From Bacteroidota bacterium (GTDB taxonomy: Bacteria; Bacteroidota; Bacteroidia; Cytophagales; UBA9547): DNA of 50,114 bases. The stretch is from the NCBI GenBank assembly GCA_004293915.1, contig RDZG01000059.1, positions 1 to 50,114 on the forward strand. The letters are read 5' to 3'. The stretch's first letter is position 1; the number at the start of each line of letters is the position of its first letter. Below, one piece after another: positions 16,687 through 35,303 of the stretch. Made by a program: the position numbers and the translations under genes. Under the pieces are notes generated by a model. It saw only the letters and a program-made list of their open reading frames with translations. It had not been told where the DNA came from and made no database searches.

Positions 16687-19600
16687 ATGGTTCTTACAAT
16701 TACAAGAATTGTTAGCACACTATTTTTGTGCCTAACATTTTATTCTAATGCCCAAATTTTAATTAAAGGTGTTGTTTCTGATAGCAAAGAAGCACTTGCT
16801 GGTGTTACGGTTATCGAAACAGGTACAACAAATGGTACTGTTACAGATATTGATGGAAAATTTTCTTTAACAGTAAAAGATACAAATTCTGTTTTGTCTT
16901 TTAGCTATATGGGATACAAAGCTAAAACAGTAGTTGCAAAAACCAATGCAAATTTTACAATTGTTTTAGAAGAAGAAATTAAACAGATAGAAGAAGTTAT
17001 TGTAACTGCAATTGCAATCAAAAAAGAAAAAAGAGAACTTGGCTTTGCTGTACAAGAAGTAAAAAGCCAAGAAATTTTAGATGCCAAAGAAACAAATCTT
17101 GTAAATGCCTTAAATTCTAAGGTAGCTGGTGTGCAAGTAGTTTCTTCGTCTGGCTCGCCAGGTGCTGCAGCTCGCATACGCTTGAGAGGAAGCACATCTA
17201 TTACTCAAAACAACGATCCTTTATTTGTTGTAGATGGAATACCAATTGACAATAGTGGCGGAGTGCGAACTAGAGATATTGAAAGCTCTAATCGAGCAAT
17301 TGATATAAACCCTGACGATGTAGCTTCGATGACTATTTTGAAAGGACCAGCCGCCACAGCACTTTATGGGATCAGAGCCGCAAACGGTGCAGTAATTATC
17401 ACGACCAAATCGGGACAATCAGGCAAAACTACTGTAAGTTTTTCTAGCTCTGTAGGTATAGACCAAGTAAATAAACTGCCACAACTTCAAACTAAATATG
17501 CGGGTGGTCAGAATGGTGTATTTATTCCGTTTGAATCAAGAACTGGTAAGCCAGCATCTGCGGCTTGGGGACCTGCTTATGGTGATCCAAGTTTGCCAAC
17601 TGGTGTGCAGTTTTATGATAATCCATCTGCTTTTTTTACTACTGGATTTCAAAGAAACAATCATATTAGTGTATCAGGCGGAAGCGAAAAATCGACTTCA
17701 TATTTTTCGATAGGAAATTTTAGGCAAACAGGTGTGGTGCCAAATCAAGACTTTGAGCGTACATCCCTTAAATTAACAAATGCCACGCAAGTAGCTAAAT
17801 TTTTGAAAATTACAGGTTCGATTAATTATAATTTATCTACCGCCACTAGGCTTAGAAAAGGTGGAAACTGGTCGGCACCTATGATATCTTTGTATAGAGG
17901 GGCAAGTGATTTTGATATTACAGGCGGATACAAAGACCCTTTAGATACCCCAGATGCGTATTTAACTGCCGATGGCTTGAAACAAAAAACAGCTTCGGTT
18001 TACGATAATCCATTTTTTTCGGTTAATAAAAATAAAAATACAGAGGCTATAAATAGAATTATTGGTTTTGTGCAAGCTGATTTAACACTCACACCATGGC
18101 TTACAGGTATGGCTCGTATTGGTGCCGATGTATTTAATCAAGTAATAACCGAAAATTACGACAAACGCTCAGCCGAAAATCATGCTCAACAATCTTTTAA
18201 AGGATCGTATTACGAAAGCCAACAATTCAAACAAGATTTTAACTCTGATTTAATGCTTAATGCACAACACAAAGTAGGTAAAGATTTTGAGGTTGGACTA
18301 AGACTCGGACAAAACTTTTGGACTTCGAAAAGTACTCGAATTGGTGTGCAAGGTTATAATTATTTATTTGATAATTTTTATGATTTTAATGCTTTAGATG
18401 TATCAGGAAGCCCATTACAACTAAGCCCTACCTCAAGAAATATCCAAAGAGCTTTGATGGCTGCTTATGCTGATGCTAAGGTTAGTTATAAAAACTATTT
18501 GTTTGTAAATTTTACAACTCGTATGGAAAAAGCTTCTACTTTACCAGCAAATAAAAACACGTATTTATATCCAACAATTAATGTAGCATTAGTATTTTCA
18601 GATTTGTTAGGTATCACAAACAAAAAATGGTTTAGCTATGGTAAAATTAGGGCTGCATGGGCACAAGTTGGTAATTTACCAAACCCTTATTTAACTACAA
18701 ATTATTATTCTCCAGTAATTTCAGGAGGATTCAATGGTCAGAATTTATATGCAATTTCTGGAGATTTAGGAAACGCAAATATCAAACCCGAAGTTTCAAC
18801 TACGCAAGAATTAGGCTTAGAACTCAAATTTTTCAAAAACAGATTAGGATTTGATGCAACTTATTATAATACTCTTAATACAAATCAAATTATTGCAGCC
18901 GATGTTTCGCCAACCTCTGGTTTTGGTTCTGCTTGGTTAAATGGTGGAAAAATAAGAAATACAGGTTTAGAAATTGTATTGAATGGAACGCCAATTAAAA
19001 CTACCAATTTTAGTTGGGATGCATCTGTTAATTTCACTTCGCAACGTACAATTGTAGAAGATCTAGTTGGAGATTTTCAATATATTGGTGGTGGTGCAGG
19101 TTTTAATAATGGTTCTAATGCTGCTTTTGTAGGTTATCAATATGGTGTATTAACAAGTCCTCAACGTTTTAAAAGATATGGACAAGACCCTAATGACTTA
19201 ACCATTCGTAAAGATTTGCCTATAGAGGTAGATTCTTCTGGGAATCCAATTATACAATCAGCTCCTAAAGGTTTTTATATTATTGGCAATCCAAATCCAA
19301 AATGGTTTGCAGGTTTGCGAAACTCTTTTACTTATAAAGGACTATATTTTTCTTTCTTATGGGATTTTAGAAGTGGTGGCGATTTGATAAATCTCACTCG
19401 TGGAAGCATGAATTATTTTGGCACACATAAAGATACAGAAAATAGAGAACAAGCCACAGTATTAGAAAATTCAGTAAAATCTGATGGGTCTGCAAATACT
19501 ACTCCAGTTTTAAAAAATGCAGCTTTTTATAACCGCTTAGGCGAAAATGCTACAGTTGGAGAGCTTTGGATTGAGAGTGGGTCGTGGGTGCGTTTACGTG

Positions 19601-19821
19601 AAGTAACCTTGCGATATAGCTTTGGAGAAAACACCACAAAAAAAATGTTTATGAAAAACTTGAGCCTAGCTTTAACCATGCGAAACCTGTTTTTATTAAC
19701 AAGTTATTCGGGTATCGACCCTGAAACCAATGCAGCTGGCAACGACCCAAGTTTAGGAAAAGATGCTTACAACATGCCAAATACAAGAAGTTTTCTTTTG
19801 ACTTTAAATGCTACGTTTTAA
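16687..19821 (+). CDS. susC-like: SusC/RagA family TonB-linked outer membrane transporter
   Basis: This is a TonB-dependent outer-membrane importer. The 1044 residues show a signal peptide (to SNAQ, about residue 23), a carboxypeptidase-regulatory-like domain (ILIKGVVSDSKEALAGVTVI to about 100), a plug with the SusC marks AARIRLRGSTSI, PLFVVDGIPIDN and GPAATALYGIRAANGAVII, and a long barrel ending in the aromatic terminus LTLNATF. The susD gene follows at once, so the pair should form a SusCD pedal-bin complex. Although most such pairs import glycans, RagAB imports peptides. The neighbours here encode cyanophycin and arginine breakdown, so a peptide-like substrate such as cyanophycin fragments is inferred. 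Confidence 0.93.
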   Translation: MVLTITRIVSTLFLCLTFYSNAQILIKGVVSDSKEALAGVTVIETGTTNGTVTDIDGKFSLTVKDTNSVLSFSYMGYKAKTVVAKTNANFTIVLEEEIKQIEEVIVTAIAIKKEKRELGFAVQEVKSQEILDAKETNLVNALNSKVAGVQVVSSSGSPGAAARIRLRGSTSITQNNDPLFVVDGIPIDNSGGVRTRDIESSNRAIDINPDDVASMTILKGPAATALYGIRAANGAVIITTKSGQSGKTTVSFSSSVGIDQVNKLPQLQTKYAGGQNGVFIPFESRTGKPASAAWGPAYGDPSLPTGVQFYDNPSAFFTTGFQRNNHISVSGGSEKSTSYFSIGNFRQTGVVPNQDFERTSLKLTNATQVAKFLKITGSINYNLSTATRLRKGGNWSAPMISLYRGASDFDITGGYKDPLDTPDAYLTADGLKQKTASVYDNPFFSVNKNKNTEAINRIIGFVQADLTLTPWLTGMARIGADVFNQVITENYDKRSAENHAQQSFKGSYYESQQFKQDFNSDLMLNAQHKVGKDFEVGLRLGQNFWTSKSTRIGVQGYNYLFDNFYDFNALDVSGSPLQLSPTSRNIQRALMAAYADAKVSYKNYLFVNFTTRMEKASTLPANKNTYLYPTINVALVFSDLLGITNKKWFSYGKIRAAWAQVGNLPNPYLTTNYYSPVISGGFNGQNLYAISGDLGNANIKPEVSTTQELGLELKFFKNRLGFDATYYNTLNTNQIIAADVSPTSGFGSAWLNGGKIRNTGLEIVLNGTPIKTTNFSWDASVNFTSQRTIVEDLVGDFQYIGGGAGFNNGSNAAFVGYQYGVLTSPQRFKRYGQDPNDLTIRKDLPIEVDSSGNPIIQSAPKGFYIIGNPNPKWFAGLRNSFTYKGLYFSFLWDFRSGGDLINLTRGSMNYFGTHKDTENREQATVLENSVKSDGSANTTPVLKNAAFYNRLGENATVGELWIESGSWVRLREVTLRYSFGENTTKKMFMKNLSLALTMRNLFLLTSYSGIDPETNAAGNDPSLGKDAYNMPNTRSFLLTLNATF

Positions 19822-19840
19822 TAGACAAATTATACCATTT

Positions 19841-21268
19841 ATGAAAAATATATTTCAAATTTTATTTATTTTTTGTGTAATCTCCATTTCGAGTTGTGAT
19901 TTTACAAAAACAAACATTGATCCAAACAATATCACAGAAGACAAACTTTTGCTCAATCAACGTTTGCCTACATTGGAATATTTCTTTGGAAATGTATTAG
20001 CTTCTGACATTCCAAAAACAGTTGGTAATACTATGGGTCAAACCATTTATATTCAAGGAAATACAGGCTTAAATACGTATTTATACGGACCTGCCGATCC
20101 ATCCAAAATTTCGCTTTGGGGTAGTTCATATTCTAGGGTTTTGTTTACTGCAGACCAAATCATAAAAGATGCTGATTCCAAAAATGCACCATTATATAAA
20201 GGCATTTCTAAAATTATATATGCTGTTGGTCTAGCTAATTTGGCATCGATTTGGGGTGATGTACCCTACAAACAATTATTTAATATTGGAGATTTTCCTG
20301 ATCCAGTGTTTGATAGCCAAGAATCTGTTTATGATGGTATTCAAAAATTATTAAACGATGCCATTATTGATTTAACCAATACAACTTCGGCTCTCAAACC
20401 CACTGCAGACGATTTTATTTTCAATGGCGATGTTGCTAAATGGACAAAAACAGCTTATGCTCTCAAAGCGAGATACCATTTGCATACCATTAGAGTTAGG
20501 CAAACGAGCTATGATTTGGCAGAAGCTGCATTGGCTAATGCGTTGCAATCTAATGCCGATAATTGTGTTTTTAAATTTGTTGCAGGTAACCCAAGCCAAA
20601 CACACCCGCTTTATAATGAGCGTGTGGGCACACAAAATACACAAGTTGATACCAAATTTACGGATTTGCTAAACGCAAAAAACGACCCACGTTTGCCTTT
20701 TTATAGCACCGTTAGAAGTAGTTTAACAACAGGAAAACGTGCCTTATATGGTCCATTGTACTCTTCAAAAGATTCTTATATGCCAGTAATAACTTACGAA
20801 GAATGTATGTTTATGAAAGCAGAAATTACGATGGCTAAATCTGGAAAAGCAGCTGCTGAATCGGATTTTAAAACAGCCATAAAAGCTTCTCTCGAACGCG
20901 TTTGTTCCGAAAAAAAATGGACTTCTGATTCCGGCACAACTGCATTAAGCATTATACCTATTACAAGTTCTATCTTAGGTACTTTTATTAATTCACAAGG
21001 AAATATTGATTCGCTTGCAACAGATGCTGATGTTTGGAAACGGATTTTTGAACAAAAATATATAGCTATGTTTTTGCAAGCAGAAACATGGAACGATTAC
21101 CGCAGAACTAAAAAATATATTCCGGAAGCTGATGGATTACCCATTTTAACACCCAGAGCTGGAAATGCTTTACCAAGACGATACAATTACCCTTCAAACG
21201 AAATCAACTACAACAAAAGTACACCTGCCGACAAAGGCATATTTGCCACTGTTTGGTGGGATAATTAA
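19841..21268 (+). CDS. susD-like: SusD/RagB family substrate-binding lipoprotein
   Basis: This is the surface lipoprotein partner of the SusC-like transporter. I chose the ATG at 19841, giving 475 residues starting MKNIFQILFIFCVISISSC, because it puts the lipobox (SISSC) at the right place. An upstream ATG at 19808 would overlap susC and bury the signal peptide. SusD-type helical repeats are visible as YGISK-like IIYAVGLANLASIWGDVPY, KALYAL-like KTAYALKARYHLH and the closing LQAETWNDYRRTKKYIPEA. The pattern fits the SusD-like_2 group. The gene lies 19 bases after susC. Confidence 0.9.
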   Translation: MKNIFQILFIFCVISISSCDFTKTNIDPNNITEDKLLLNQRLPTLEYFFGNVLASDIPKTVGNTMGQTIYIQGNTGLNTYLYGPADPSKISLWGSSYSRVLFTADQIIKDADSKNAPLYKGISKIIYAVGLANLASIWGDVPYKQLFNIGDFPDPVFDSQESVYDGIQKLLNDAIIDLTNTTSALKPTADDFIFNGDVAKWTKTAYALKARYHLHTIRVRQTSYDLAEAALANALQSNADNCVFKFVAGNPSQTHPLYNERVGTQNTQVDTKFTDLLNAKNDPRLPFYSTVRSSLTTGKRALYGPLYSSKDSYMPVITYEECMFMKAEITMAKSGKAAAESDFKTAIKASLERVCSEKKWTSDSGTTALSIIPITSSILGTFINSQGNIDSLATDADVWKRIFEQKYIAMFLQAETWNDYRRTKKYIPEADGLPILTPRAGNALPRRYNYPSNEINYNKSTPADKGIFATVWWDN

Positions 21269-21307: not shown

Positions 21308-24300
21308 ATGAAAATGAATTACAATGCTTTAAAATTATTTAAAATTAGAAACGGAGTTTTCTATGTAACCACGCTTTTTGGCGTAATGTTGAGTGTGATG
21401 GAAAGTAACGGGCAGATTTCTTTACCTGCTCCAAGGCAAATTCCATTTTTTGAAGATTTTAGTAATACCATTTCTGGAGCATATTTGACAAATGCTTCTA
21501 TTTTAGTTGCAAGAGGTTTTACATCAGGTGCGCCACCGCTTGCGCCTGCTCAAACTACCAAAAGTGGTGCTGAAGCCACACTAGATGGTGCTTTTGCAGC
21601 AAGAGCCTTAGGAACTGGACTTTTAGCCCCACTTTCTAATACAGTTGGATCTGGTACTAGGTCGAATGGATCAAATCCTGCTTCCTACTTAAATATAACA
21701 GATGCAGGTTTACTAATTAGCTTAAATAATAGAAGTTGGGCTGTAGTTTCTGGTATAAAAACAACAGGTTTTCAAAATGTAAAATTGTCTTACACTTTGG
21801 CATTAACTGAAAGAGCAGCAAATAACTTGACACCAAATCTTAATTTAGTAGTTTTTGCTCAATATAAACTTAATGCAGCTGATTCTTGGAAAACTATTCT
21901 AGGTAGCGATTGGTCTACAACGGGTATAAATGTCAATGATATTTCTACTTTTACTGGCTTAACCTTACCTACTGAAGTTGAAAACAGGAATGAAGTATAT
22001 ATTAGATTTGTTCATTACCAAACTGCAGATGTAACTGTTTCAGATTTATTAAGTTATGCAATCGACAATATTAGCGTAACTGGGGATGCTTTTACCCTTT
22101 CAAATTTGGATATTTCGGTGCCATCAGCACCTGCAGAAGGAGTTCCATTTGATGTTGTTGTAAAAGCAACTAATGCAGCTGGTACTGTTGGAACTGTTAC
22201 AGGAAATACCGCAGTTACACTTTCTGGTGTAGGTACAACTGGCGTTTTGGCTGGTAATCTATCAACCACCATTTTGAGTGGAATGAGTTCTGCCACTTTT
22301 TCTGGATTAACATTTTCACAAGCATCTGCACTTACACTTACAGGGACAGTTGTTTCGGGGGATGCATTAGCAGCAGATATGGCAGTAGTTACAGTTGCTG
22401 CGTTACCTACAAAATATAAAATAGAAAGAGTAGTACCACAAGCTGGAACTGTATTTTTTGCAAACCAACCCATATCTGTTGTGATTAGCTCATACAACAC
22501 GCTAGATTTACTCTCTCCTGTACCAAATAATTCAATATTTACACTTACAGGCACAGATCTAGCTGGAATTACCACAGGCACAATTACTTCGGGAATGAAT
22601 CAAACAACCGTTACAGGTGTTTTAATTCCAAGCACAGCATCGGGTTATACTATTTCTGTTTCAAGTATGTCTGGAAGTAACTTAGCTTCGGCTACTTCAA
22701 GTGCTTTTGATGTAAAACTGTATCCAACTATTTTAAGTATTTCTACACTTTCAGGCATTGCTAGAAAATCGCCATTTACAATATTAGTAAACACAAAAAA
22801 TATAGCAGACGAAATATATAATTTGAATACCGCTTTAGGTCTTACACTTTCAGTTGCTTCTGGAACAGGCACACTTAATACTACAAGTGCTACTATTTCT
22901 GTTGGTACTTCAAGCATTACAATTACTGGAGTTACTTACGACAAAACCGAATCGGGAGTTTCTATTTCAGTTTCAGGAGCAGGATTTGTTGGTGCTGTAA
23001 CAAATGTGTTTACAGTTTCTGGTCCTGCAATACCAACTGAGGGCTTTACTATTCCTTTAGCACAATCTCTTCCTTATCTCCAAGATTTTGGAACTAATAT
23101 TTCAATATGGAATGATGTAACGGCTTCATCTTCTATTTTACCTTTTGGATTAGTGGTTGCAAGGCAAACACCTACTCCTTTTAGAACATTTGACGATGCT
23201 GATTTGTCTAATTATTTAGCAACTGGTTTCGTAGGCGGGTCATCTGTTAATCCTGTAACTTATGCAGGTGGAAATATTGGTTTAAGAATTGAAACCAGAG
23301 AAAATAGAGGAGAAGCACTCGTACTTGCTTTAAAAAGTTCTGGTTATGAAAATTTAAAATTATCTTACACTTTAGTTCCCGAAGTAATAACTGGAGCTGG
23401 TGTTTATGGAATGGTGGCTCAAGCTAGAATTGGTTCATCAGGATTTTTTAGTAATATAGTTGGCACAGAATATGTCTCAACTGCTCCTGGAGTGGTTTTG
23501 GGCACACCGATTAATTACAATGTTACATTACCAAGTGCATTAAGCGGACAAAGTGTTGTAAATATTCGTTGGGTAAGATGGCATAATAATGTTGATAATT
23601 CTGTTATTCTCGACAACATCTCTATCTCTGGTACAAAAACAAATTATTTGTCGATAACTGGAATTAATCCTTCAAAAATATTTGTAGGCGATGCATCTAG
23701 TATAATTGTTTCAGCTTTTGATAAATTTAATATGCCTCAAACCGTTACTTCTGCCACTGTGATTTCGATTACAGGCAATACAAGTCTTTTGGGTACAACA
23801 ACTGCAACAATTTTGGCTGGTTCATCGAGTGCAACAATCAGTGGATTGCTATTCGCTACATCAAAATACCAAGCATCACTTAATGCTTTTGTAGTAAGTG
23901 GCGATGCATTTGGAGCGGCAAGTAGTAATTTATTTAATGTTTCGGGTGTACCTACTTTGTTTAAAGTTATCGATATTCAACCCTTAGGTGCTAAACAAAT
24001 TGGAAAACCTGTTTCCGTAAAAATAAAACTTGTTGATGCTTTTGGCAAAACTGCATTGGCAAAAACCAATACCAATGTGGTGGTTTCGGTCTCAGGTGGA
24101 ACAGGAATTTTAGTTGGCACAACAACAGGCACATTTACAGCAATGATGGATAGTATTATCACTATAAAAACATTTACGTACAGCAAAGCCGAATCTAATC
24201 TTAAATTAGCTATCAATGGTGGAGGTTTTGCCGAAGTGTTGTCTGACACCATTTCTTTTAAAGCAGATGCTTTTGCAGGTATTTCGGTTTTGTATAGCGA

Positions 24301-25177
24301 GGATTTTGAAAAATCTGTTAAACCAAGCGTTGGCTTTCCTTCTATTCCTTCGGAAATGAAAATGTTTAGCATTGATGGACAAACTGCAATAACTGCAACA
24401 TATCCTAGTTATGGAACAGATGCTTGGGTAATTAGAAGAGTTCCTCAAGAAGGTTTCTTAGGACGTGGTGGCGATGTGCAACCAACACCAACTTATTGGA
24501 GCAATGTTAATTCAGCTGCACCAGATTCTAACTATATAGCTTATTCGGCATCTTGGTTTAATGATAACACAAAAGCGGCAGATCGTTGGTTGGTTACACC
24601 AGGTATATCTATGGTAGGTGGTAATTTCAAACTAAATTATCAAGCCAAATCTTCTACAAGTTCAGGAAATTTTAAAGATAGATTAGAAGTAAAAGTTACT
24701 ACTCAATTTAATGGCACTTCTATAATTTCTAACGATTGGGAAACTATTTCAGTAAAAAACTTATCAACTGGTTTAGATTCGCTTTCTCATTTGGTTTCAA
24801 CTCGTGTAATTAATTTTGAATATGCTTTTAATGATGCATTTGTTAAAAATCAAGTTATTTATTTAGCATTTAGATTAGTAACTCCTGCTGATAAAGGCGA
24901 TAGAATTTCGGTTGATAATATTTATGTTACTTCAGGAGGAGCAACTTCAATAAAATCTTCTGAAATTTCAACTATTGGTTTGAAAGCAATGCCAAATCCT
25001 GCATATGAAACTATAGTAATTCAATCGGCAATTTTGGAAGAAGTTAAAATTTATAATCTAATTGGAAACGAAGTTTTAACTGCCAAAACCAATTCAATAA
25101 TTTCAATTGGTTCGCTTACCAAAGGGTTATATATTGCAGTAACTAAAAATGGTTCTATAAAATTTGTAGTTGAATAA
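21308..25177 (+). CDS. large T9SS-secreted surface protein with repeated beta-domains
   Basis: The 1289 residues begin with a signal peptide ending near ESNGQ and close with a type A T9SS sorting domain (MPNPAYETIVIQS near 1230, then VKIYNLIGNEVL and LTKGLYIAVTKNG). In between, three jelly-roll-like choice-of-anchor or cleaved-adhesin modules start with PFFEDFSNT, LPYLQDFGTNIS and VLYSEDFEKS. They alternate with Ig-like repeats rich in Gly, Thr and Ser (TGVLAGNLSTTILSGMSSAT and similar). No catalytic motif is visible. It sits 39 bases after susD, where glycan utilisation loci encode surface binding proteins, so a substrate-binding or adhesive role outside the cell is plausible but unproven. 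Confidence 0.75.
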   Translation: MKMNYNALKLFKIRNGVFYVTTLFGVMLSVMESNGQISLPAPRQIPFFEDFSNTISGAYLTNASILVARGFTSGAPPLAPAQTTKSGAEATLDGAFAARALGTGLLAPLSNTVGSGTRSNGSNPASYLNITDAGLLISLNNRSWAVVSGIKTTGFQNVKLSYTLALTERAANNLTPNLNLVVFAQYKLNAADSWKTILGSDWSTTGINVNDISTFTGLTLPTEVENRNEVYIRFVHYQTADVTVSDLLSYAIDNISVTGDAFTLSNLDISVPSAPAEGVPFDVVVKATNAAGTVGTVTGNTAVTLSGVGTTGVLAGNLSTTILSGMSSATFSGLTFSQASALTLTGTVVSGDALAADMAVVTVAALPTKYKIERVVPQAGTVFFANQPISVVISSYNTLDLLSPVPNNSIFTLTGTDLAGITTGTITSGMNQTTVTGVLIPSTASGYTISVSSMSGSNLASATSSAFDVKLYPTILSISTLSGIARKSPFTILVNTKNIADEIYNLNTALGLTLSVASGTGTLNTTSATISVGTSSITITGVTYDKTESGVSISVSGAGFVGAVTNVFTVSGPAIPTEGFTIPLAQSLPYLQDFGTNISIWNDVTASSSILPFGLVVARQTPTPFRTFDDADLSNYLATGFVGGSSVNPVTYAGGNIGLRIETRENRGEALVLALKSSGYENLKLSYTLVPEVITGAGVYGMVAQARIGSSGFFSNIVGTEYVSTAPGVVLGTPINYNVTLPSALSGQSVVNIRWVRWHNNVDNSVILDNISISGTKTNYLSITGINPSKIFVGDASSIIVSAFDKFNMPQTVTSATVISITGNTSLLGTTTATILAGSSSATISGLLFATSKYQASLNAFVVSGDAFGAASSNLFNVSGVPTLFKVIDIQPLGAKQIGKPVSVKIKLVDAFGKTALAKTNTNVVVSVSGGTGILVGTTTGTFTAMMDSIITIKTFTYSKAESNLKLAINGGGFAEVLSDTISFKADAFAGISVLYSEDFEKSVKPSVGFPSIPSEMKMFSIDGQTAITATYPSYGTDAWVIRRVPQEGFLGRGGDVQPTPTYWSNVNSAAPDSNYIAYSASWFNDNTKAADRWLVTPGISMVGGNFKLNYQAKSSTSSGNFKDRLEVKVTTQFNGTSIISNDWETISVKNLSTGLDSLSHLVSTRVINFEYAFNDAFVKNQVIYLAFRLVTPADKGDRISVDNIYVTSGGATSIKSSEISTIGLKAMPNPAYETIVIQSAILEEVKIYNLIGNEVLTAKTNSIISIGSLTKGLYIAVTKNGSIKFVVE

Positions 25178-25361: not shown

Positions 25362-27374
25362 ATGAAAAAATTTATATCCATTTGCTTCTTATTTGCTATT
25401 TCAAATCTTTTTGCACTTTCAGGTAAACTTTTGCTAGTTGGTGGTGGCACCGAGCGTGATACCCCAAACTCGTGGAGTACTCCCGCATTTCAGTGGGCTA
25501 TCAATCAATCTGCCAATAAAAAAGCTCTTATTTTACATTACGAAACAACTTCTACTTTTTACCCAACTTACATGACAGGCGAATGTGGGGCTGTTGCATC
25601 AAAAAATTTAGTTATCAATGCTACAAATGCTGATTTGCAAGAAACCTATGATACAATTATGAAATATGATTTTGTATTTTTCAGAGGTGGCGACCAATCG
25701 GTTTATTATTCCACCTATCTCAACACAAAAACCGCTCAGGCAATAAATGACAAATTTAATGCGGGTGGTGTTATTGGTGGCACATCTGCTGGTTTGCATA
25801 TTTTATCAAAAGTGATTTACAATGCCCAAGATGCATCGGTAACACCGCTCGAAACGATGATAAATGTATCAAACACAGGCATAACCTTAAAAAATGATCT
25901 TTTTAATCTTTTTCCAGGTTTTGTATTCGATTCGCACGTGGCTGAGCGAGGCAGATTTCCTCGAACCATTGGTTTTATGGCAAAATGGTTTAATGAAAAC
26001 AACGAAAAAATTAAAGGAATTACTGTAGATGATTTAACCGCCATGGGAATTGGCTCTGATGATATAGGCACAGTTTTTGGTACTGGTGCTGTGGGTATTT
26101 ACGAATCTAAATCTTTGAAATTAAGTCCTTATTCAATTTCAGGAAAGTTAAAAACCGACTCTATACAAGTTACACAATTAATAAATGGTTGGAAATATAA
26201 TTTCAATACTCAATCTATCACTACATCTGGTGTAGTTTCTATCACAAGCACTTTTGCATCAGAAACAAATCAAAGTACCATTTTGCTTTCTGGGGCTGAT
26301 GATTTTGCAAATAATTCAAATTTTATAACTCATTTTGTAACTAAAATCGGTAAAACCGATTTTCCGATAGTTATTTTTACAGGAACAGATTCCACTTTAG
26401 CAAGAAGTTTTAAACTCAATATACTTTCAAAAGGTGCAAAAAGATGTAAAATTATTCGTTTAATTCCTTCTCGATTAACAGTTGTAGGCTTATTAGATAC
26501 CATCAAACAAACCAATAAATTTTTATTTATAGGAAATTCAATTTCTCAATTATACTCAATTTTAACGGTAGATGGCATTGGAAAATTTATAAATACAAAA
26601 ATCAGAGCCAAAGGTGTTGCCGTTGGATTTGTTGGCAATAATGCAAGATTTGCGGGAAAAAAAGTCTTGAGCGATAATTACATTACTTCGGGTGCCGCTT
26701 ACGATAACCTTATTCGTACTACCAAAGGTTTAGGTTTGCTTCAAAATACAATAATTTTTCCAAATGCGTACCTTAATTCAAATGTAAATGAAAACAGTGT
26801 GTCTGTCATACCCTATTTTATGGTTCAAGATAGCGTTTTGCATGGCATTATGCTGACAAGCAATTCTTACTTAAAATATGCAACTAAAATCGACAACAAA
26901 GCCTATTTTACATCCGATGGCTTTCAGCCAGCTATAGTTTTGAAAAATAAATCAGGCATCAAAACTGGATTTTCTAATACCATATCAGGCAGATTTACTG
27001 TAATGTCCCCGCGACAGATTGTAGGGTTTGAGCAAATGTCAGTTTCGTTTTTAGACACAAACGCAACTTTTGTGGCAGCAGAAAATGTACAATATTCGCC
27101 TATAAATGATTCATTATTACTAAACATAAATCAAAATTATTCCTTAAAAAACGAATTTAAAATTTATCCAAATCCAACAAATGAAGTATTGAATTTAGAA
27201 AATGATACGTTTATTAACTTAAAAATTTACGATTTATTAGGAACATTTTTAATGGAAAAAACGGGTATTATTAATCAAATTTATGTCTCAAACTTACCCA
27301 AAGGAGTTTACTTCTTAGAAATAAAAACTCCAGAAACAACTTATAAATTAAAGTTTTATAAAACAGAATATTAG
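25362..27374 (+). CDS. secreted cyanophycinase fused to a degenerate second copy, with T9SS tag
   Basis: Cyanophycinase (peptidase family S51) cuts the arginyl-polyaspartate polymer into beta-Asp-Arg dipeptides. The 670 residues contain: a signal peptide (1 to about 19); an S51 domain with KLLLVGGGTERD at 22-33, FFRGGDQ (106-112), the nucleophile S142 in GGTSAG and a likely histidine at 192 in DSH; a second stretch (about 305-530) that follows the same order of elements but lacks them, with FVGNN at 423-427 where GTSAG should be; and a T9SS sorting domain from about 600 (IYPNPTNEVL, KIYDLLG, NLPKGVYFLEI). It should be exported to the cell surface or medium. The next gene, 6 bases on, is another cyanophycinase. 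The pseudo-domain may bind polymer or form an internal dimer. Confidence 0.85.
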   Translation: MKKFISICFLFAISNLFALSGKLLLVGGGTERDTPNSWSTPAFQWAINQSANKKALILHYETTSTFYPTYMTGECGAVASKNLVINATNADLQETYDTIMKYDFVFFRGGDQSVYYSTYLNTKTAQAINDKFNAGGVIGGTSAGLHILSKVIYNAQDASVTPLETMINVSNTGITLKNDLFNLFPGFVFDSHVAERGRFPRTIGFMAKWFNENNEKIKGITVDDLTAMGIGSDDIGTVFGTGAVGIYESKSLKLSPYSISGKLKTDSIQVTQLINGWKYNFNTQSITTSGVVSITSTFASETNQSTILLSGADDFANNSNFITHFVTKIGKTDFPIVIFTGTDSTLARSFKLNILSKGAKRCKIIRLIPSRLTVVGLLDTIKQTNKFLFIGNSISQLYSILTVDGIGKFINTKIRAKGVAVGFVGNNARFAGKKVLSDNYITSGAAYDNLIRTTKGLGLLQNTIIFPNAYLNSNVNENSVSVIPYFMVQDSVLHGIMLTSNSYLKYATKIDNKAYFTSDGFQPAIVLKNKSGIKTGFSNTISGRFTVMSPRQIVGFEQMSVSFLDTNATFVAAENVQYSPINDSLLLNINQNYSLKNEFKIYPNPTNEVLNLENDTFINLKIYDLLGTFLMEKTGIINQIYVSNLPKGVYFLEIKTPETTYKLKFYKTEY

Positions 27375-27380
27375 TTATTA

Positions 27381-28214
27381 ATGAAAAACCACATATTATA
27401 TTATATTTTATTTTTTAGTTTAAATATTTTCGCTCAAGGAAAGTTGTTTATTATTGGAGGTGGCAAAAGACCTACGCCAATGCTTGAACGCTTGATTTCT
27501 GAAAGTGGCGTTGATAAATCTGGCTATATTTACATTTTGCCTTATGCAAGCGAAGAGCAAGATAGTTCAATTTTCTATGCTAAAAAGCAATTTGACAAAA
27601 TGGGACTTATGAATGTTTTTGGTGCTATTGTAGCTAAAAATCAAATGGTTCCGCCTTCTTTTTTAGATAGTATTTCAAATGCAAAATGTATATACATTCC
27701 TGGTGGCGACCAAGTAAAATTTATGGATATTGTTAAGTCCACTAGAATAGATATTGCTATAAAAAAATGTTTTAAAAACGGTGGATTAATTGCAGGAACT
27801 AGTGCGGGAGCAGCCGTGATGAGCCAAAAAATGATTACAGGTGTAGAATTAAAATATCCATCAACAACCGAAAATACAGAAAACAAAGGTTTTGAAACCA
27901 TAGAAGCAAATAATATTGAAATTAGTGAAGGTTTAGGTTTTTTACAGAATAGCATTATCGACCAACATTTTATCAAACGCAAACGTCAAAACAGATTAAT
28001 TGCAGTTGCTATTGAAAACCCAAATTTTTTATGTGTCGGAATTGATGAAGCTACTGCTATTTTAGTAAAAAACAATATTGCCGAAGTAATTGGCGATTCG
28101 CAGGTTCTAACTTTATTAAATACGCAAAAAATAAATAAAATTACGCCTAAATTATCAGCTAAAAATTTACAATTAAGTTTATATCAATCCAAAGAAAAAT
28201 TTAAAATAAAATAA
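27381..28214 (+). CDS. cyanophycinase, single-domain, signal-peptide form
   Basis: The 277 residues are one S51 peptidase domain after a signal peptide (MKNHILYYILFFSLNIFAQ). Marks are KLFIIGGGKRPTPM at 21-34, IPGGDQ (106-111), the nucleophile S141 in AGTSAGAAVMS, and IIDQHFIKRKRQNR with H196, the classical cyanophycinase segment. There is no T9SS tag, so it should stay in the periplasm and finish fragments imported through SusC/SusD. Its stop codon lies inside an AAAAT tandem repeat that also holds the next start codon. An unrelated exopeptidase of the S51 group (peptidase E) is less likely, because DQHF and the length favour cyanophycinase. Confidence 0.87.
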   Translation: MKNHILYYILFFSLNIFAQGKLFIIGGGKRPTPMLERLISESGVDKSGYIYILPYASEEQDSSIFYAKKQFDKMGLMNVFGAIVAKNQMVPPSFLDSISNAKCIYIPGGDQVKFMDIVKSTRIDIAIKKCFKNGGLIAGTSAGAAVMSQKMITGVELKYPSTTENTENKGFETIEANNIEISEGLGFLQNSIIDQHFIKRKRQNRLIAVAIENPNFLCVGIDEATAILVKNNIAEVIGDSQVLTLLNTQKINKITPKLSAKNLQLSLYQSKEKFKIK

Positions 28215-28232
28215 AATAAAATAAAATAAAAT
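28203..28232 (+). repeat. six tandem AAAAT units across a stop-start junction
   Basis: Six perfect AAAAT units fill 28203-28232. The cyanophycinase stop codon (28212-28214) and the first two bases of the transporter start codon (28231-28233) lie within the array, so changes in copy number would alter the spacing between the genes. Confidence 0.85.
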
Positions 28233-29640
28233 GATCAAAAAACTTCCCGATACCTTAGTAATAATTTCAATTGTTTTGTTAGTTTTTGCAGTCTTATCTT
28301 GGATAATACCTGCTGGCGAATTTGAAAGAATAGAAAAAGATGGTAATATTAAAATTATTCAAAATTCTTTTCATAATGTCAAACAAGTGCCACAGGGCAT
28401 TGCAGAACTTTTCCAAGCACCCGTAAAAGGTTTTGCACAAACTGCATTAGTAATTGCGTTTGTGTTTTTTGTGGGTGGTGTGTTTGGTGTAGTTAATAGT
28501 ACTGGAGCAATCGAATCTGGCTTGACTTTAGTTTTGAAACAAACCGAAAAAAATCCAAAATATAAACGCATCATTATTCCACTTTTGATGCTGTTTTTTG
28601 CTATCACAGGGGCAACTTTTGGACTTAGTGAAGAGGTTTTGATTTTTGTATTAATTACAATTCCGCTTTGTGTTTCACTTGGTTACGATTCTATTGTTGG
28701 AGTGGCAGTTCCACTTGTAGGTACTGCTATTGGTTTTGGAGGAGCCATTACAAATCCTTTCACAATAGGCATAGCTCAAAGTATTGCCGATGTGCCACTT
28801 TTCAGCGGTTGGGAATATAGATTATTTTGTTTGATTGTATTTTCGATATTAGGGATTGCTTATTTGATTTTTTATATGTCAAAAATTGAAAAAAATCCAC
28901 TCTTGAGTCCAGTTTACGAAATTGACAAAGAATTTAGAACCAAAATGTCTTCGGGTTCAAATTTAGATTTGGAAAACAAACATGAATTTACGTTGAAAAG
29001 AAAAATGATAGTTGTGTTGTTTTTTTTAACAATTATAACATTAGTGGTTGGTTCTACAACATTTGATTGGTATATTAATGAAATCTGTGCGTTGTTTTTG
29101 GGTTTAGCAGTAACAAGTGCTTTGGTATATCGAATCAAAGCCAATGATTTAATTGCTTCTTTTATGGTTGGAGCCAAAGATATGTTGCCAGCATGTTTAA
29201 TAATTGCTTTTTCAAAAGGTATCATTATTATAGCCACAGAAGGCAAGATTATTGATCCAATTTTATTTTCGATTGCCAATGCTTTAAAAGATTTCCATCC
29301 GCTTGCTTCGGTCGAAATTATGTTTTTTGTGCAATCTTTAATTAATGTAATCGTACCTTCTGGTTCAGGACAAGCAGCTTTGACGATGCCTATTTTGGCA
29401 CCTTTGAGCGATATTATTGGAGTTACTCGCCAAACCGCAGTGCTTGTTTTTCAAATGGGAGATGGACTTAATAACATGATTATTCCTACAAGTGGTGTAA
29501 CCATGGGAACATTAGCAATTGCCAAAATACCTTATCAAGTATGGGTTAAATGGATTTTGCCATTAATGATAGTTTTATTTGTTTCTTGTATGTTATTATT
29601 AATTCCACCTGCATTGTTTATGTATTATGGACCAAAGTAG
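28231..29640 (+). CDS. YfcC/DcuC-family inner membrane carrier
   Basis: The 469-residue polytopic protein has about 12 hydrophobic segments. Family marks are WIIPAGEFERIEKDG near the N-terminus, FFVGGVFGVVNSTGAIE, FGLSEEVLIF, GTAIGFGGAITNPFTIGIAQ and the C-terminal PSGSGQAALTMPI and NMIIPTSGVTMG. The family is annotated from C4-dicarboxylate carriers, but many members probably carry amino acids or peptides and the substrate cannot be read from sequence. Between cyanophycinase and isoaspartyl peptidase genes it is well placed to move beta-Asp-Arg, arginine or aspartate from periplasm to cytosol, which is inference. Confidence 0.82.
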   Translation: MIKKLPDTLVIISIVLLVFAVLSWIIPAGEFERIEKDGNIKIIQNSFHNVKQVPQGIAELFQAPVKGFAQTALVIAFVFFVGGVFGVVNSTGAIESGLTLVLKQTEKNPKYKRIIIPLLMLFFAITGATFGLSEEVLIFVLITIPLCVSLGYDSIVGVAVPLVGTAIGFGGAITNPFTIGIAQSIADVPLFSGWEYRLFCLIVFSILGIAYLIFYMSKIEKNPLLSPVYEIDKEFRTKMSSGSNLDLENKHEFTLKRKMIVVLFFLTIITLVVGSTTFDWYINEICALFLGLAVTSALVYRIKANDLIASFMVGAKDMLPACLIIAFSKGIIIIATEGKIIDPILFSIANALKDFHPLASVEIMFFVQSLINVIVPSGSGQAALTMPILAPLSDIIGVTRQTAVLVFQMGDGLNNMIIPTSGVTMGTLAIAKIPYQVWVKWILPLMIVLFVSCMLLLIPPALFMYYGPK

Positions 29641-29988: not shown

Positions 29989-30921
29989 ATGAAAAAATAC
30001 TCATTAGCGATTCATGGTGGAGCTGGCACTATTTCAAAAGCCCAGCTTACTCCAGAAAAAGAACTTTTGTATCATGAAGCTTTACAAAAAGCCTTAAATG
30101 TAGGCAAATATTTTCTTGAAAATGGCGGTACTGCTTTAGATGCAGTCGAATTTAGTGTTCGTTGTCTTGAAGATATCGACTTGTTTAATGCTGGAAAAGG
30201 TTCCGTATTTGGCAACGATGGCAAACACGAAATGGAAGCTTCTATTATGTGTGGCTCAACTTTAAATGCAGGTGCAGTTGCAGGTATTAGAAATGTTAAA
30301 AATCCAATTCAACTGGCTAGAATGATTAAAAAAAATACCGATTATGTTTATTTACATGGTTCCGAAGCCGAGAATTTTGCTAAAATTAATCATTTACCTT
30401 TTGAGGATGATTTTTATTTCTATACGCAAGAACGATTTGACCAACTTCAAGCTGTAAAACATTCTGATAAAGTAATTTTAGACCATACTGATGTCGATTA
30501 TAAATTTGGAACTGTAGGAGCTGTTGCCCTCGACCAACATGGAAACTTAGCTGCCGCAACTTCTACAGGCGGATTGACAAATAAAAAATATGGCAGACTT
30601 GGCGATAGCTCAATTATAGGTGCTGGAACTTATGCCAATAACGAAACTTGTGCCATTTCTTGCACGGGTTATGGCGAATATTTCATTCGTGCCGTAGTGG
30701 CTCACGATGTTTCTTGCCTGATGCAATACAAAGGTTTGACTTTGCAACAAGCGAGTGAAATTGTAGTAAAAGATAAACTTATCAAGATGGGTGGCGAAGG
30801 TGGTTTAATTGGGGTTGATGCCGATGGAAATATTGCACTAGTCTTTAACAGCGAAGGAATGTATAGAGGATATACTTCGAACAAAAATACGAATTTAATT
30901 ACTGAAATATATGGAAACTAA
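29989..30921 (+). CDS. iaaA-like: isoaspartyl peptidase / plant-type L-asparaginase
   Basis: This Ntn-hydrolase cleaves itself to expose a catalytic Thr, then hydrolyses beta-aspartyl peptides. Members of this type are known to hydrolyse beta-Asp-Arg from cyanophycin. The 310 residues show IHGGAGTI (8-15), NAGKGSVFG (67-75), ASIMCGSTLNAGAVAG, the autoprocessing and nucleophile site FGTVGAVALD with T175, and the substrate loops GDSSIIGAGTYA and CTGYGEYFIR. No signal peptide is present, so it acts in the cytosol and would release Asp and Arg. It overlaps the next gene by 11 bases, implying coupled translation. Confidence 0.92.
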   Translation: MKKYSLAIHGGAGTISKAQLTPEKELLYHEALQKALNVGKYFLENGGTALDAVEFSVRCLEDIDLFNAGKGSVFGNDGKHEMEASIMCGSTLNAGAVAGIRNVKNPIQLARMIKKNTDYVYLHGSEAENFAKINHLPFEDDFYFYTQERFDQLQAVKHSDKVILDHTDVDYKFGTVGAVALDQHGNLAAATSTGGLTNKKYGRLGDSSIIGAGTYANNETCAISCTGYGEYFIRAVVAHDVSCLMQYKGLTLQQASEIVVKDKLIKMGGEGGLIGVDADGNIALVFNSEGMYRGYTSNKNTNLITEIYGN

Positions 30922-31843
30922 AATTCAAAATAAAGCCTATTTTGCCAACGAAATTCATTTTGAAATATCTGACATTAAAGATAGAACCGAGCCTCGAAAT
31001 ATTCTGATGGCTTCGCCAAATTATTTTGATGTCGTTGATGTCAAAAATGTACACATGGCTGGCAATGCGGGTAAAATAGATAAAAAACTGGCTCATATTC
31101 AATGGAATGAACTTAAATCGGCTTTTAATCATGCTGTTAAAGAAAAAGTTTTAGATAATGTTTTGGTTATTGATGGAGCAAAAGATTGCGAAGATATGGT
31201 TTTTACTGCCAATCAATCTTTTCCTTGGATAGATGAAAATGGCAATAAAATTGTTGTAATGAGCAAAATGCGACATGATAGTCGAAAGCGTGAAGTTCCT
31301 TTTTTTGAAGCCTATTATCAAAATTTGGGATACAAAACATTGCATCTGAACCAAACGGAAATGTTTGAAGGCATGGGAGATTTAATTCCGCATATAGGTA
31401 AAAGATTATTGTATGGCGGATTCGGACACCGAACCAATAAAGATGCTTACACCGAACTTTCTGCACTTTTGCAAGTACCAATTATTGCCCTTGAGTTGAT
31501 AGACGAACGTTTTTATCACCTCGATACGTGTTATGTTTCACTCGGGAAAGATGCTGTAATGATATGCAAAGAGGCTTTTACTCCCGAGGGATTGCAAGCG
31601 CTAGCAAAAATGTACAAAAGAGTGTATTATATTCCAATCGAGGAAGCAGTAGATTATTTTGCCCTTAACGCACATACTGTTTTTGATTTTGTATCAAACA
31701 AAAAAATAGCATTTATTCATAAAGGAACAAAAGTTACTTATGACATTTTAAAAAAAGAAGGCTTTGAAATCATCGAAATAGATACTTCAGAATATATGAA
31801 ATCGGGTGGAAGTGTGTTTTGTATGAAAATGATGGTGTATTAG
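30911..31843 (+). CDS. guanidine-group hydrolase of the ArgZ/DDAH superfamily
   Basis: The 310-residue protein belongs to the amidinotransferase/arginine deiminase fold. Visible sites are VFTANQSF with N101 where deiminases have Asp, FEGMGD with E154 and D158, the catalytic histidine H204 in FYHLDT, and the nucleophile C304 in GGSVFCM. The Asn in FTAN is the feature of cyanobacterial arginine dihydrolase (ArgZ/AgrE), which makes ornithine directly from arginine. The fused cyclodeaminase domain of AgrE is absent. With a separate arginine deiminase downstream, it may instead hydrolyse citrulline, giving ornithine in two steps. Dimethylarginine hydrolase is another family option. Ornithine is the substrate of the aminotransferase at the end of this locus. 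Confidence 0.75.
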   Translation: METKIQNKAYFANEIHFEISDIKDRTEPRNILMASPNYFDVVDVKNVHMAGNAGKIDKKLAHIQWNELKSAFNHAVKEKVLDNVLVIDGAKDCEDMVFTANQSFPWIDENGNKIVVMSKMRHDSRKREVPFFEAYYQNLGYKTLHLNQTEMFEGMGDLIPHIGKRLLYGGFGHRTNKDAYTELSALLQVPIIALELIDERFYHLDTCYVSLGKDAVMICKEAFTPEGLQALAKMYKRVYYIPIEEAVDYFALNAHTVFDFVSNKKIAFIHKGTKVTYDILKKEGFEIIEIDTSEYMKSGGSVFCMKMMVY

Positions 31844-32320: not shown

Positions 32321-33574
32321 ATGATAAACGTATCTTCAGAAATAGGAAATCTAAAAAAAATAATCATACACAGTCCTGATGATGGAATTGAAATGGTTAC
32401 GCCTGATAAAGCCGTAGAGTATTTATATGAAGATATTGTGTATTTGGATAAAATGCGAAAAGAACACAATGTGTTTAAAAAAGTGCTAGAAGCATTTGTT
32501 GGGACAGAAAACGTATTAGATATTCAACATTTGATAGAGGAAGTTTGCCAAATAGATAATGTAAAAAAAGAGTTAATTGAAGCGGTTTGTAAACTCGAAA
32601 AAAAACCAAGTTTAATTTCTGTTTTATCAAAACTTTCGGCTAAAAATCTTGCTTACACTTTTATTACTGGAATACTAAAATCAAATAAAACGATACTCAT
32701 TTCTCCCATTTCAAATTATATCTTTTGCAGAGATATTGGTGTGATTGTTAATAATTATTTGCTCATCACACAAGCCATGAAAAAGGCGAGAAGTAGAGAA
32801 TCTTTGCTGAGTTGGTATGTGTATCATTACAGCAAAACATTTGATATTATTCAGCGAAACGATTGGTTTATAAAAATTTCAAATGATGCAAATGAATTGG
32901 TCGAAAACATTGGACACAACGAAAACGAACTTTCTATCGAAGGCGGTGATGTGATGACATTTGGAGAAGAATATTTATTAATTGGCTGCAGCGAACGAAC
33001 AAGTCGTTATGCTTTTGATAAAGTAAAAGAACTTATTTTTCATCGCAAAACAATCAAATATGTGGTAATGGTAGAAATACCCAAAGATCGCTATTGCATG
33101 CATCTGGATACGATTTTTACTCGAATTAGTACAGATGAATGTGTAGTATTTGCTCCACTTATCATGCAAAAAGGAAAACTATTGATTAAAAAATTTGAAA
33201 AAGGAATACCAAATCCTCAAATCTATGATTCGTTGCAAGATTTATTACTTGAAATAAATCCAAATATGAAATTTATAGCTTGTGGCGATGGCAAATCTCC
33301 GTACCAAGAACGAGAACAATGGACAGATGGTTGCAATTTATTTGCCATTCGTTCGGGAGTTGCAGTTACTTATGATAGAAACCAAGTAACCACAAAAGCC
33401 ATAGAAAAACATGGTTATAAAGTAATAAAAGCCGAACAATTATTATCAAAATTTAAAACCAAAGAACTCGACCCAAAAACATTAGAAAAAACATTGATTC
33501 TAATTCCATCAAACGAACTTTCTAGAGCAAGAGGGGGTACACATTGCTTAACATTTCCAATTTTGAGAGAGTAA
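32321..33574 (+). CDS. arcA: arginine deiminase
   Basis: Arginine deiminase converts Arg to citrulline plus ammonia. The 417 residues show YIFCRDIGV (the F-x-R-D substrate segment), IEGGDVM with the active-site Glu and Asp, MHLDTIFT with the catalytic His, and the C-terminal ELSRARGGTHCLTFP with nucleophile C409. This is a complete active site. The usual partners ornithine carbamoyltransferase (arcB) and carbamate kinase (arcC) are absent from the window, so the ATP-yielding pathway is not supported here. It lies 47 bases after the four-helix gene. Beside the ArgZ-like enzyme it may supply citrulline for a second hydrolysis to ornithine. Confidence 0.9.
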   Translation: MINVSSEIGNLKKIIIHSPDDGIEMVTPDKAVEYLYEDIVYLDKMRKEHNVFKKVLEAFVGTENVLDIQHLIEEVCQIDNVKKELIEAVCKLEKKPSLISVLSKLSAKNLAYTFITGILKSNKTILISPISNYIFCRDIGVIVNNYLLITQAMKKARSRESLLSWYVYHYSKTFDIIQRNDWFIKISNDANELVENIGHNENELSIEGGDVMTFGEEYLLIGCSERTSRYAFDKVKELIFHRKTIKYVVMVEIPKDRYCMHLDTIFTRISTDECVVFAPLIMQKGKLLIKKFEKGIPNPQIYDSLQDLLLEINPNMKFIACGDGKSPYQEREQWTDGCNLFAIRSGVAVTYDRNQVTTKAIEKHGYKVIKAEQLLSKFKTKELDPKTLEKTLILIPSNELSRARGGTHCLTFPILRE

Positions 33575-33677: not shown

Positions 33678-35303
33678 ATGAACGGAACATTCAAAATCCC
33701 ATTTCCTATAAACGAACCTACTTTGCAATATGCCCCAAATTCTAAAGAGCGTTTGCAAATTTTGGAAGCAATCAAATTGGCAAAATCAACCGAAATTGAA
33801 GTACCAATGTATATTGGAAATAAAACAATAAAAGAAGGAATTAAAAAGCGAATGTCGCCACCACACGAACATGCACATACTTTAGGCTACTATTGGGAAG
33901 GCAAAGAAAACCATGTTTCACAAGCCATAAACGCTGCTCTTGAAACCAAGGAAAGTTGGGAATTGTTGCCTTGGGAACAAAAAGCAAGTATTTTTTTGAA
34001 AGCTGCAGACTTAGTTTCTGGTTCGTATCGCTTCAAAATAAATGCAGCTACCATGCTTTGCCAATCCAAAAGTGTGTTTCAAGCCGAAATTGATGCCGCT
34101 TGCGAATTTGCTGATTTCTTACGTTTTAATGTCTATTATGCCGAAGAAATTTATAAATCACAACCAATAGTGAACTCCCCTGCTATATGGAACCGAATGG
34201 AATACAGACCTTTGGAGGGTTTTATATATGCACTTACACCATTTAATTTCACGGCTATTGCTGCGAATTTGCCCATTGCTCCAGCCTTAATGGGCAATGT
34301 AATTGTTTGGAAACCTGCCGATTCGCAAGTATATTCGGCTCAAGTAATTATGGAAATTCTTACCGAAGCAGGTTTGCCAACAGGCGTAATTAATATGGTG
34401 ATGTGCGATGGACCAAAAGCGGGAGAAGTTGTTTTTGCCCATCGTGATTTTGCAGGTATTCATTTTACGGGTAGCACAGCCGTTTTTAAAACAGTTTGGA
34501 AAACGATAGCTCAAAATTTAAATACATACAAATCTTACCCAAAAATAGTGGGAGAAACTGGCGGAAAAGATTTTATTTTGGCTCACCCAACAGCCGATAT
34601 AAAGGTTTTAGTAGCTGCCCTTATTCGTGGAGCTTTTGAGTTTCAAGGTCAGAAATGTTCAGCTTGCTCAAGGGCATATATTCCAAAATCCATTTGGAAC
34701 GAAGCTTGGAAATTGATGGAAACGGAGCTTAAAACCATAAAAATTGGCTCTACGGAGGATTTATCTTGCTTTATGAATGCGGTAATTGATGAAAAATCAT
34801 TTACAAAAATTTCGGGATATATTGAAAAAGCAAAAGCATTAAAAAGTAATAAAATCATTTTTGGTGGCAATTATGATAAATCAAAAGGTTACTTTATCGA
34901 ACCAACTGTAATTTTAACTACAGATCCTCATTCGCTAACAATGGAAGAAGAAATTTTTGGTCCTGTTCTTACTATTTATGTTTATGATGATGAAAAATTG
35001 GACGAAACTTTAACACTTATCGACCAAACTTCGCCTTATTCGCTCACTGGAGCAGTGATTGCAACCGATAAAATAGCGATTGCAAAAATAGCTGAAAAAC
35101 TACGAAATAGTGCAGGTAATTTCTATATCAATGATAAGTGTACAGGGGCAGTAGTTGGTCAGCAACCATTTGGAGGAGCCAGAATGAGCGGCACAAACGA
35201 CAAATCGGGCTCGTTTTTAAATCTTTTGCGTTGGGTTTCACCTCGCACTATTAAAGATAATATGTTGCCTGTAAAAGATTATCGTTATCCTTTTTTGGGG
35301 TAA
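33678..35303 (+). CDS. pruA: L-glutamate gamma-semialdehyde (P5C) dehydrogenase
   Basis: This enzyme oxidises glutamate semialdehyde to glutamate with NAD, completing arginine, ornithine or proline catabolism. The 541 residues match the stand-alone PruA/RocA type of about 540. Sites are the N-terminal PFPINEPTLQYAPNS, FTGSTAVF of the NAD fold, the general base E293 in VGETGGKD, the catalytic C327 in GQKCSACSRAY, and EEEIFGPVLTIYVYDD. No proline dehydrogenase is nearby. Its substrate here should come from the ornithine aminotransferase two genes downstream. Confidence 0.93.
   Translation: MNGTFKIPFPINEPTLQYAPNSKERLQILEAIKLAKSTEIEVPMYIGNKTIKEGIKKRMSPPHEHAHTLGYYWEGKENHVSQAINAALETKESWELLPWEQKASIFLKAADLVSGSYRFKINAATMLCQSKSVFQAEIDAACEFADFLRFNVYYAEEIYKSQPIVNSPAIWNRMEYRPLEGFIYALTPFNFTAIAANLPIAPALMGNVIVWKPADSQVYSAQVIMEILTEAGLPTGVINMVMCDGPKAGEVVFAHRDFAGIHFTGSTAVFKTVWKTIAQNLNTYKSYPKIVGETGGKDFILAHPTADIKVLVAALIRGAFEFQGQKCSACSRAYIPKSIWNEAWKLMETELKTIKIGSTEDLSCFMNAVIDEKSFTKISGYIEKAKALKSNKIIFGGNYDKSKGYFIEPTVILTTDPHSLTMEEEIFGPVLTIYVYDDEKLDETLTLIDQTSPYSLTGAVIATDKIAIAKIAEKLRNSAGNFYINDKCTGAVVGQQPFGGARMSGTNDKSGSFLNLLRWVSPRTIKDNMLPVKDYRYPFLG

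Follow-up and report, generated by a model that had tools for sequence, protein, structure and literature searches.

Cyanophycin is a nitrogen store of many cyanobacteria, and to our knowledge little is known about the extracellular attack of heterotrophs on this insoluble polymer. The cyanophycinases that we know of contain one S51 domain each. Pseudoenzyme fusions, in which a single chain joins an active domain to a homologue that has lost catalysis, show the same pairing as the gene described here, and we know of no such active/dead fusion for S51. The extracellular CphE of Pseudomonas alcaligenes is reported to have a mature mass of 43.6 kDa (PMC3235067). A cyanophycin utilization locus has been described (Ben Hania et al. 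2017, as cited in PMC10206079), in which, by that account, genes for cyanophycinase, isoaspartyl peptidase and a transporter are clustered. In Citromicrobium, a TonB-dependent transporter gene is mentioned near the cyanophycinase gene (PMC3400609).

Gene content of the locus and comparison with described systems

We analyzed a stretch of 50,114 nucleotides (the window) on contig RDZG01000059.1 of a Bacteroidota bacterium from the order Cytophagales (assembly GCA_004293915.1). The initial annotation had described its gene at 25362–27374 as a cyanophycinase fused to a catalytically dead copy of itself. The reading frame and the active-site motifs named for its first half, GGDQ at residues 109–112 and Ser142 in GGTSAG, proved correct. 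The 670-aa product consists, in this order, of a signal-peptide-like start, an S51 domain, a degenerate S51-like domain and a type IX secretion system (T9SS) sorting tail, and the stretch between the S51 domain and the tail gave no Pfam match (Table 1). The sorting domain at residues 601–667 is absent from the initial annotation. It is of type A, and SprA, the T9SS part searched for, scored over its cut-off in the same genome, a combination expected of a T9SS substrate. TIGR04183 tails were detected in 29 of the 37 two-half loci found in total (E ≤ 0.001).

Table 1 Features of the two-half gene and its surroundings in the window
Feature	Residues	Position	Strand	Evidence
SusC/RagA TonB-linked outer-membrane transporter		16687..19821	+	TIGR04056, 650 bits (cut-off 368)
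SusD-like lipoprotein		19808..21268	+	PF12771, 163.9 bits (cut-off 27)
1289-aa choice-of-anchor J protein, T9SS tail match under Pfam cut-off		21308..25177	+	Pfam, NCBIfam
Whole two-half gene, 670 aa		25362..27374	+	ORF list, Pfam, NCBIfam
N-terminal signal-peptide-like stretch	1–20	25362..25421	+	sequence inspection by eye
First half, S51 peptidase domain	21–285	25422..26216	+	PF03575, 37.7 bits (cut-off 23.9)
GGDQ motif	109–112	25686..25697	+	present in 33/33 readable first halves
Nucleophile elbow GTSAG, Ser142	140–144	25779..25793	+	Ser in 33/33 readable first halves
DSHVAERGRFPR, His192 and arginine cluster	190–201	25929..25964	+	His in 36/36 readable
Second half, degenerate S51-derived domain	about 302–575	26265..27086	+	NCBIfam, PDB profile search, MAFFT, hhalign
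IGNSIS, place of the GGDQ motif	390–395	26529..26546	+	alignments
GFVGNNARFAG, place of the nucleophile elbow, without serine nucleophile	422–432	26625..26657	+	alignments
Glu477-Asn478, nearly invariant in the dead half	477–478	26790..26795	+	E 36/37, N 37/37
T9SS type A C-terminal sorting domain	601–667	27162..27362	+	TIGR04183, 44.6 bits (cut-off 23)
Stand-alone CphB-type cyanophycinase		27381..28214	+	TIGR02069, 150.9 bits (cut-off 126.6)
DcuC/YfcC-type inner-membrane transporter		28231..29640	+	PF03606, 344.7 (cut-off 23.1); NF008611, 370 (below cut-off 500)
Asparaginase_2 / isoaspartyl (beta-aspartyl) peptidase, IaaA type		29989..30921	+	PF01112, 345.5 (cut-off 27); NF007589, 341 (below cut-off 567)
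DDAH / arginine-dihydrolase-like guanidino-group enzyme		30911..31843	+	PF19420, 53.8 (cut-off 23); NF045659, NF052232 under cut-offs
Arginine-deiminase-like enzyme		32321..33574	+	PF02274, 197.8 (cut-off 22.8); TIGR01078 under cut-off
L-glutamate gamma-semialdehyde dehydrogenase		33678..35303	+	TIGR01236, 781 bits (cut-off 613.6)
Ornithine--oxo-acid transaminase		36036..37256	+	TIGR01885, 663 bits (cut-off 378.4)

The first half shares with CphB and CphE (MEROPS S51, TIGR02069) the S51 serine and histidine, the GGDQ motif and the arginine cluster, Ser142 and His192 being the assigned residues of the catalytic triad. To this common core the two-half protein adds the degenerate domain and the T9SS tail. 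Against the cyanophycinase equivalog TIGR02069 the first half scores 88.4 bits, below the curated cut-off of 126.6, whereas the adjacent gene at 27381–28214, with GGDQ, GTSAG, DQH and a signal-peptide-like start, exceeds it. First halves also carry Ser or Thr where CphB-type proteins have the Gln of the DQH motif; because of this exchange and the low TIGR02069 score, their substrate may differ. The elbow reads GSSAG in two of the 33 readable first halves and GTSAG in the others. In the fragment L091, the Asp and some of the arginine cluster are missing from what remains of the first half; it may be dead as well, a hint that the pair can lose activity.

The region 27381–30921 resembles the published utilization locus in its clustered cyanophycinase, isoaspartyl peptidase and transporter genes, the latter two identified by Pfam at scores under the NCBIfam equivalog cut-offs. 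The peptidase is of the Asparaginase_2/IaaA type in the window and of the IadA type in the published locus, as far as the latter is described in PMC10206079. The window goes beyond that description, since the same stretch also carries SusC/SusD, proteins with T9SS tails and a route from arginine to glutamate. Since several of the enzymes score over Pfam but under NCBIfam equivalog cut-offs, the exact substrates of the carrier, the isoaspartyl peptidase and others are putative. Cyanophycin synthetase (cphA1, TIGR02068) gave nothing over the cut-off in the 156 contigs of the genome (best score 64 bits vs 850); any cyanophycin degraded would accordingly be of external origin. Two adjacent matches to the Mur-ligase part of the synthetase (62 and 64 bits; contig C102 of this genome, G000, 25566–26653) are possibly a split Mur-ligase-like gene.

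Taken as a whole, 16687–37256 seems to encode every step needed to turn extracellular cyanophycin into glutamate; it includes two proteins that match T9SS tails, a pair of cyanophycinase-type genes and two guanidino-group enzymes. Between the two arginine enzymes lies a four-helix-bundle gene (TIGR02436, 31908–32273) that is retained in the related locus L074. The protein encoded at 21308–25177 exceeds its counterparts in the nearest relatives in length; the one in L074 aligns only with residues 6–367 and 982–1289, so that the middle part resembles an insertion of repeated domains.

A 690-aa protein from another genome of the order (L050, 307–2379, forward strand) likewise has two S51 domains per chain. 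Both of its domains keep GGDQ, GTSAG and DTH and neither looks dead, and it falls outside the two-half family; it is apparently an independent S51 pairing with two live sites. Among the literature matches listed, judged by titles and abstracts and drawn largely from outside the subscription journals, there was no two-domain or dead-domain cyanophycinase, and the same mainly non-subscription coverage gave no match for a cyanophycinase that is catalytically inactive or secreted by the type IX system. 

Relation of the second half to S51 peptidases

The initial annotation saw the order of S51 elements repeated at about residues 305–530. MAFFT and hhalign alignments confirmed this order in FLFIGNSISQLY, GVAVGFVGNNARF and GLGLLQNTIIFPNAYL. 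The S51-like stretch ends further downstream, at about residue 573 by hhalign. Searched alone against 18,950 NCBIfam models, the second half had a sole match, the cyanophycinase model TIGR02069 (residues 286–575, E 1.6e-4, or 286–580, E 1.7e-4; profile positions 2–162 of 250). As 3 of 15 second halves matched TIGR02069 as single sequences and none of the 15 matched Pfam S51 at E ≤ 0.1, single second-half sequences are, judged by these searches, mostly too divergent for family-model matches. A profile of the 15 sequences, compared with 177,635 PDB sequences, had cyanophycinase 7uqv as its top match (E 0.0046), followed from E 0.038 by mostly Ras proteins; in hhalign its matches were weak, with a probability of 57% for the first halves and of 9% for a mixed collection of S51 proteins.

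The profile comparison envisaged in the initial annotation, carried out by local hhalign with 37 members, aligned second halves and S51 over about 240 columns. The second-half profile matched 16 stand-alone CphB-type proteins over 246 columns (P 7.3e-10, score 73.5), 33 first halves over 239 columns (P 5.7e-8, score 60.1) and 16 lipoprotein-type S51 proteins over 179 columns (P 2.3e-7), with decoys, the same three profiles reversed, at a background P of 0.45–0.57. Used to search genomes, the second-half profile also matched four stand-alone CphB-type proteins (L093, L094, L095, L115; E 2e-4 to 8e-4 per genome), and these were all of its matches other than two-half proteins. We take homology of the second half to S51 as shown at the level of sequence.

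Structure prediction gave models of low confidence, and the proposed S51 derivation rests on the sequence comparisons. AlphaFold reached a mean pLDDT of 35.7 for the second half with its two close orthologues and of 42.5 with an S51-biased alignment (three second halves, three first halves, and two CphB-type plus two lipoprotein-type S51 paralogues). A Foldseek search with the latter model returned no match at E ≤ 0.001, PepE 6iru ranking second and sixth. Up to the elbow, helices and strands alternate beta-alpha in both low-pLDDT models, which presumably matches S51 and counts for little.

The loss of the nucleophile and of GGDQ, recognized earlier in this gene, extends to 37 of 37 members. 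FVGNN-type sequences stand in place of GTSAG, and a nucleophile is present in 0 of 37 second halves; the GDSLG of the L109 second half sits at the GGDQ place, not at the elbow. Mean pairwise identity among the 33 complete members is 22% for the second half vs 43% for the first. Twelve second-half positions are conserved at >75%. G432 is found in 33, Y447 in 34, G456 in 37 and R551 in 33 of 37 members, and position 449 is Gly in 34 of 37 and Asn in the window gene. The register of Glu477-Asn478 depends on the alignment: the pair lies opposite the Glu-Arg of the first-half ERGR in one and opposite its Arg-Gly in another. In comparisons of the window gene with the two relatives closest to it and of these with each other, where synonymous sites approach saturation in two of three pairs, dN/dS was 0.10–0.16 for the second half, 0.07–0.09 for the first half and 0.25–0.58 for the tail. 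Given this ratio and the 12 positions held at >75%, the second half is, on the evidence of codon and residue conservation, constrained by purifying selection and not decaying. Net charge was dropped as an indicator of polymer binding: the second half of the window gene contains 29 K+R vs 16 D+E, but values across the 37 members range from -25 to +13.

Occurrence and origin of the two-half architecture

Two-half genes were present in 3 of the 10 genomes of the window's own family, and a whole-protein search of 291 genomes at the order level yielded 16 two-half loci in 15 genomes. Second-half profile searches, in which at most six candidates per genome were scored, found the gene in 2 of 395 genomes besides the window's own in a draw from the class and in 19 of 395 besides its own in a draw from the phylum, the two draws overlapping in part. 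The architecture, which the initial annotation had proposed to count in other Bacteroidota, does recur there, with 37 loci in 36 genomes in total; the G113 locus is split across two contigs. A first half stands ahead of the second in all 33 loci whose contig extends far enough to show it, and the remaining four (L041, L091, L092, L112) are cut by contig ends. No free-standing second half and no other partner was seen in the class and phylum draws (395 genomes each, at most six candidates scored per genome). The two nearest relatives of the window gene come from metagenome genomes named 'Cytophagales bacterium'. Just downstream of the two-half gene they have an extra lipoprotein-like S51 gene (L064, about 12025–13062; L063, about 9905–10945), which is missing from the window.

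The neighborhood is partly shared. Among the 16 order-level loci, including the window, a CphB-type gene lies near the two-half gene in nine, the carrier in nine and SusC in ten; an isoaspartyl peptidase is near in 8 of 16, or nine with one further stretch. Six of the nine loci come from one genus group (f19/g37) and are not independent. At 6 of the 16 loci (L075, L076, L078–L081, with L081 at a contig end), the fetched stretch contained none of the pathway genes searched. Eight stretches chosen beyond the carrier held an ornithine transaminase in five cases (L139, L140, L141, L145, L146) and a close P5C dehydrogenase in L139 only. In the class and phylum stretches, a separate CphB-type gene occurs in 5 of 20 and the carrier in 3 of 20; 3 of the 20 are contigs of <10 kb.

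Phylogenetic analysis did not support the wording that the second half is a copy of the first. We calculated an unrooted tree from 46 rows hand-picked from 102, comprising 15 of 33 first halves, 15 of 37 second halves, 8 of 16 CphB-type and 8 of 16 lipoprotein-type proteins. All second halves fall into a single clade (100/100), whose branch is very long at about 2 changes per column. They are placed apart from the first halves, which cluster with lipoprotein-type S51 proteins, away from second halves (96/87). The free tree contains a split of second halves plus CphB-type proteins. A clade of first and second halves, not found in the tree, was not rejected either (p-AU 0.234), and a clade of second halves and lipoprotein-type proteins had a p-AU of 0.076. 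Long-branch attraction is likely in this tree. The 37-member profile also scores higher against CphB-type proteins than against first halves (73.5 vs 60.1). The second half may have arisen by fusion with a CphB-like copy or by a self-duplication of great age. Since the pairwise identities of the two halves correlate (Spearman 0.71; 528 non-independent pairs from 33 members) and second halves form one clade, a single old fusion of the halves would fit these data.

Putative function of the enzyme and its dead half

Because an active half, a sorting tail and a fitting locus occur together, we consider it quite probable that the gene encodes a secreted cyanophycinase-like enzyme with cyanophycin as putative substrate; this is our best reading of the gene. 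The fuller proposal, a type-IX-secreted cyanophycinase-like exopeptidase whose dead half serves as a pseudo-protomer within a cyanophycin-to-glutamate pathway, appears to us evenly balanced. Points against it are the low-confidence structure models, the first half's TIGR02069 score below the cut-off and its Ser or Thr in the DQH motif, the loci whose fetched surroundings held no pathway gene or no separate CphB-type gene, the presence of the two-half gene in 3 of 10 genomes of its own family, and the degenerate first half of L091. Domain make-up, motif loss, selection (three close genes), first-half linkage, tail and clustered genes are read from the DNA; the substrate, the cell compartments, the pathway order and the pseudo-protomer role we infer, as follows. 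The gene product would be a type-IX-secreted cyanophycinase-like serine exopeptidase in which the first S51 domain does the cutting. The second domain would be an S51 relative of ancient origin, no longer catalytic, that has become a permanent structural partner, a built-in pseudo-protomer replacing the second subunit of the ordinary cyanophycinase homodimer. The enzyme would release beta-Asp-Arg outside the cell from cyanobacterial cyanophycin, and the products would cross the outer membrane via SusC/SusD. In the periplasm, the neighboring CphB-type enzyme could finish oligomers; the dipeptide would then be imported by the YfcC-type carrier and split by the isoaspartyl peptidase, and arginine would be converted via ornithine to glutamate.

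For the dead half, we favor the role of a built-in structural partner over its main rival, polymer binding. This preference draws on the dimeric structure of CphB (PMC5399006), on the active site of PepE, located at the dimer interface according to a title in the reference list of PMC9239234, and on the observation that no dead half was seen without an S51 first half. By analogy, the dead half would take a pseudo-protomer position at the dimer interface.

Instead, the dead half could be a polymer- or granule-binding module that holds insoluble cyanophycin near the active half, as a carbohydrate-binding module does, with Glu477/Asn478 and neighbors as part of the putative site. The Glu-Asn pair, Tyr447, position 449, Gly456 and Arg551 are kept despite the low mean identity of 22%, and the pair lies at or beside the place of the active half's Glu-Arg-Gly-Arg cluster, in a register that varies by alignment; both points suit a binding surface. 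Binding modules, however, tend to recur in combination with other enzymes, and no example outside the pairing with an S51 first half was seen here among at most six candidates per genome in the class and phylum draws. Nor do the 37 members share a common electrostatic feature, given their range of net charge. We regard binding as an unlikely though serious alternative to the structural partner.

It is more improbable that the second half has turned its S51 scaffold into a different enzyme or a receptor, whose new site would lie around Glu477-Asn478, Tyr447 and Arg551. The strong conservation of a few polar residues where the old triad has left no trace, together with purifying selection, is what such a change would predict, but the members show no recurring family match except the weak one to S51, and the conserved residues may be structural. 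Least probable is an unrelated Rossmann-like alpha/beta domain with generic similarity: the two low-confidence models, the empty Foldseek result, the Ras proteins among the PDB matches, the missing Pfam S51 matches and the 57% and 9% of the 15-sequence profile would allow it, but the only NCBIfam match and the first PDB match are both cyanophycinases, the 37-member profile aligns over its full length with decoys at background, and the second-half profile finds CphB-type proteins.

Returning to the structural partner, a bolder version can be imagined, in which active and dead halves form an obligate pseudo-heterodimer throughout the phylum. The dead half would complete the active site, or gate it, across the former dimer interface, and a newly gained site around the Glu-Asn pair would grip the cyanophycin chain so that the secreted enzyme acts processively on insoluble granules. 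This version is doubtful.

The two-half secreted enzyme would provide a testable handle on how heterotrophs attack cyanophycin outside the cell. It also bears on whether a built-in partner can replace the S51 dimer and on the role of the dead half. At the level of gene content, the window would extend the known cyanophycin utilization locus to a SusCD/T9SS-based form.
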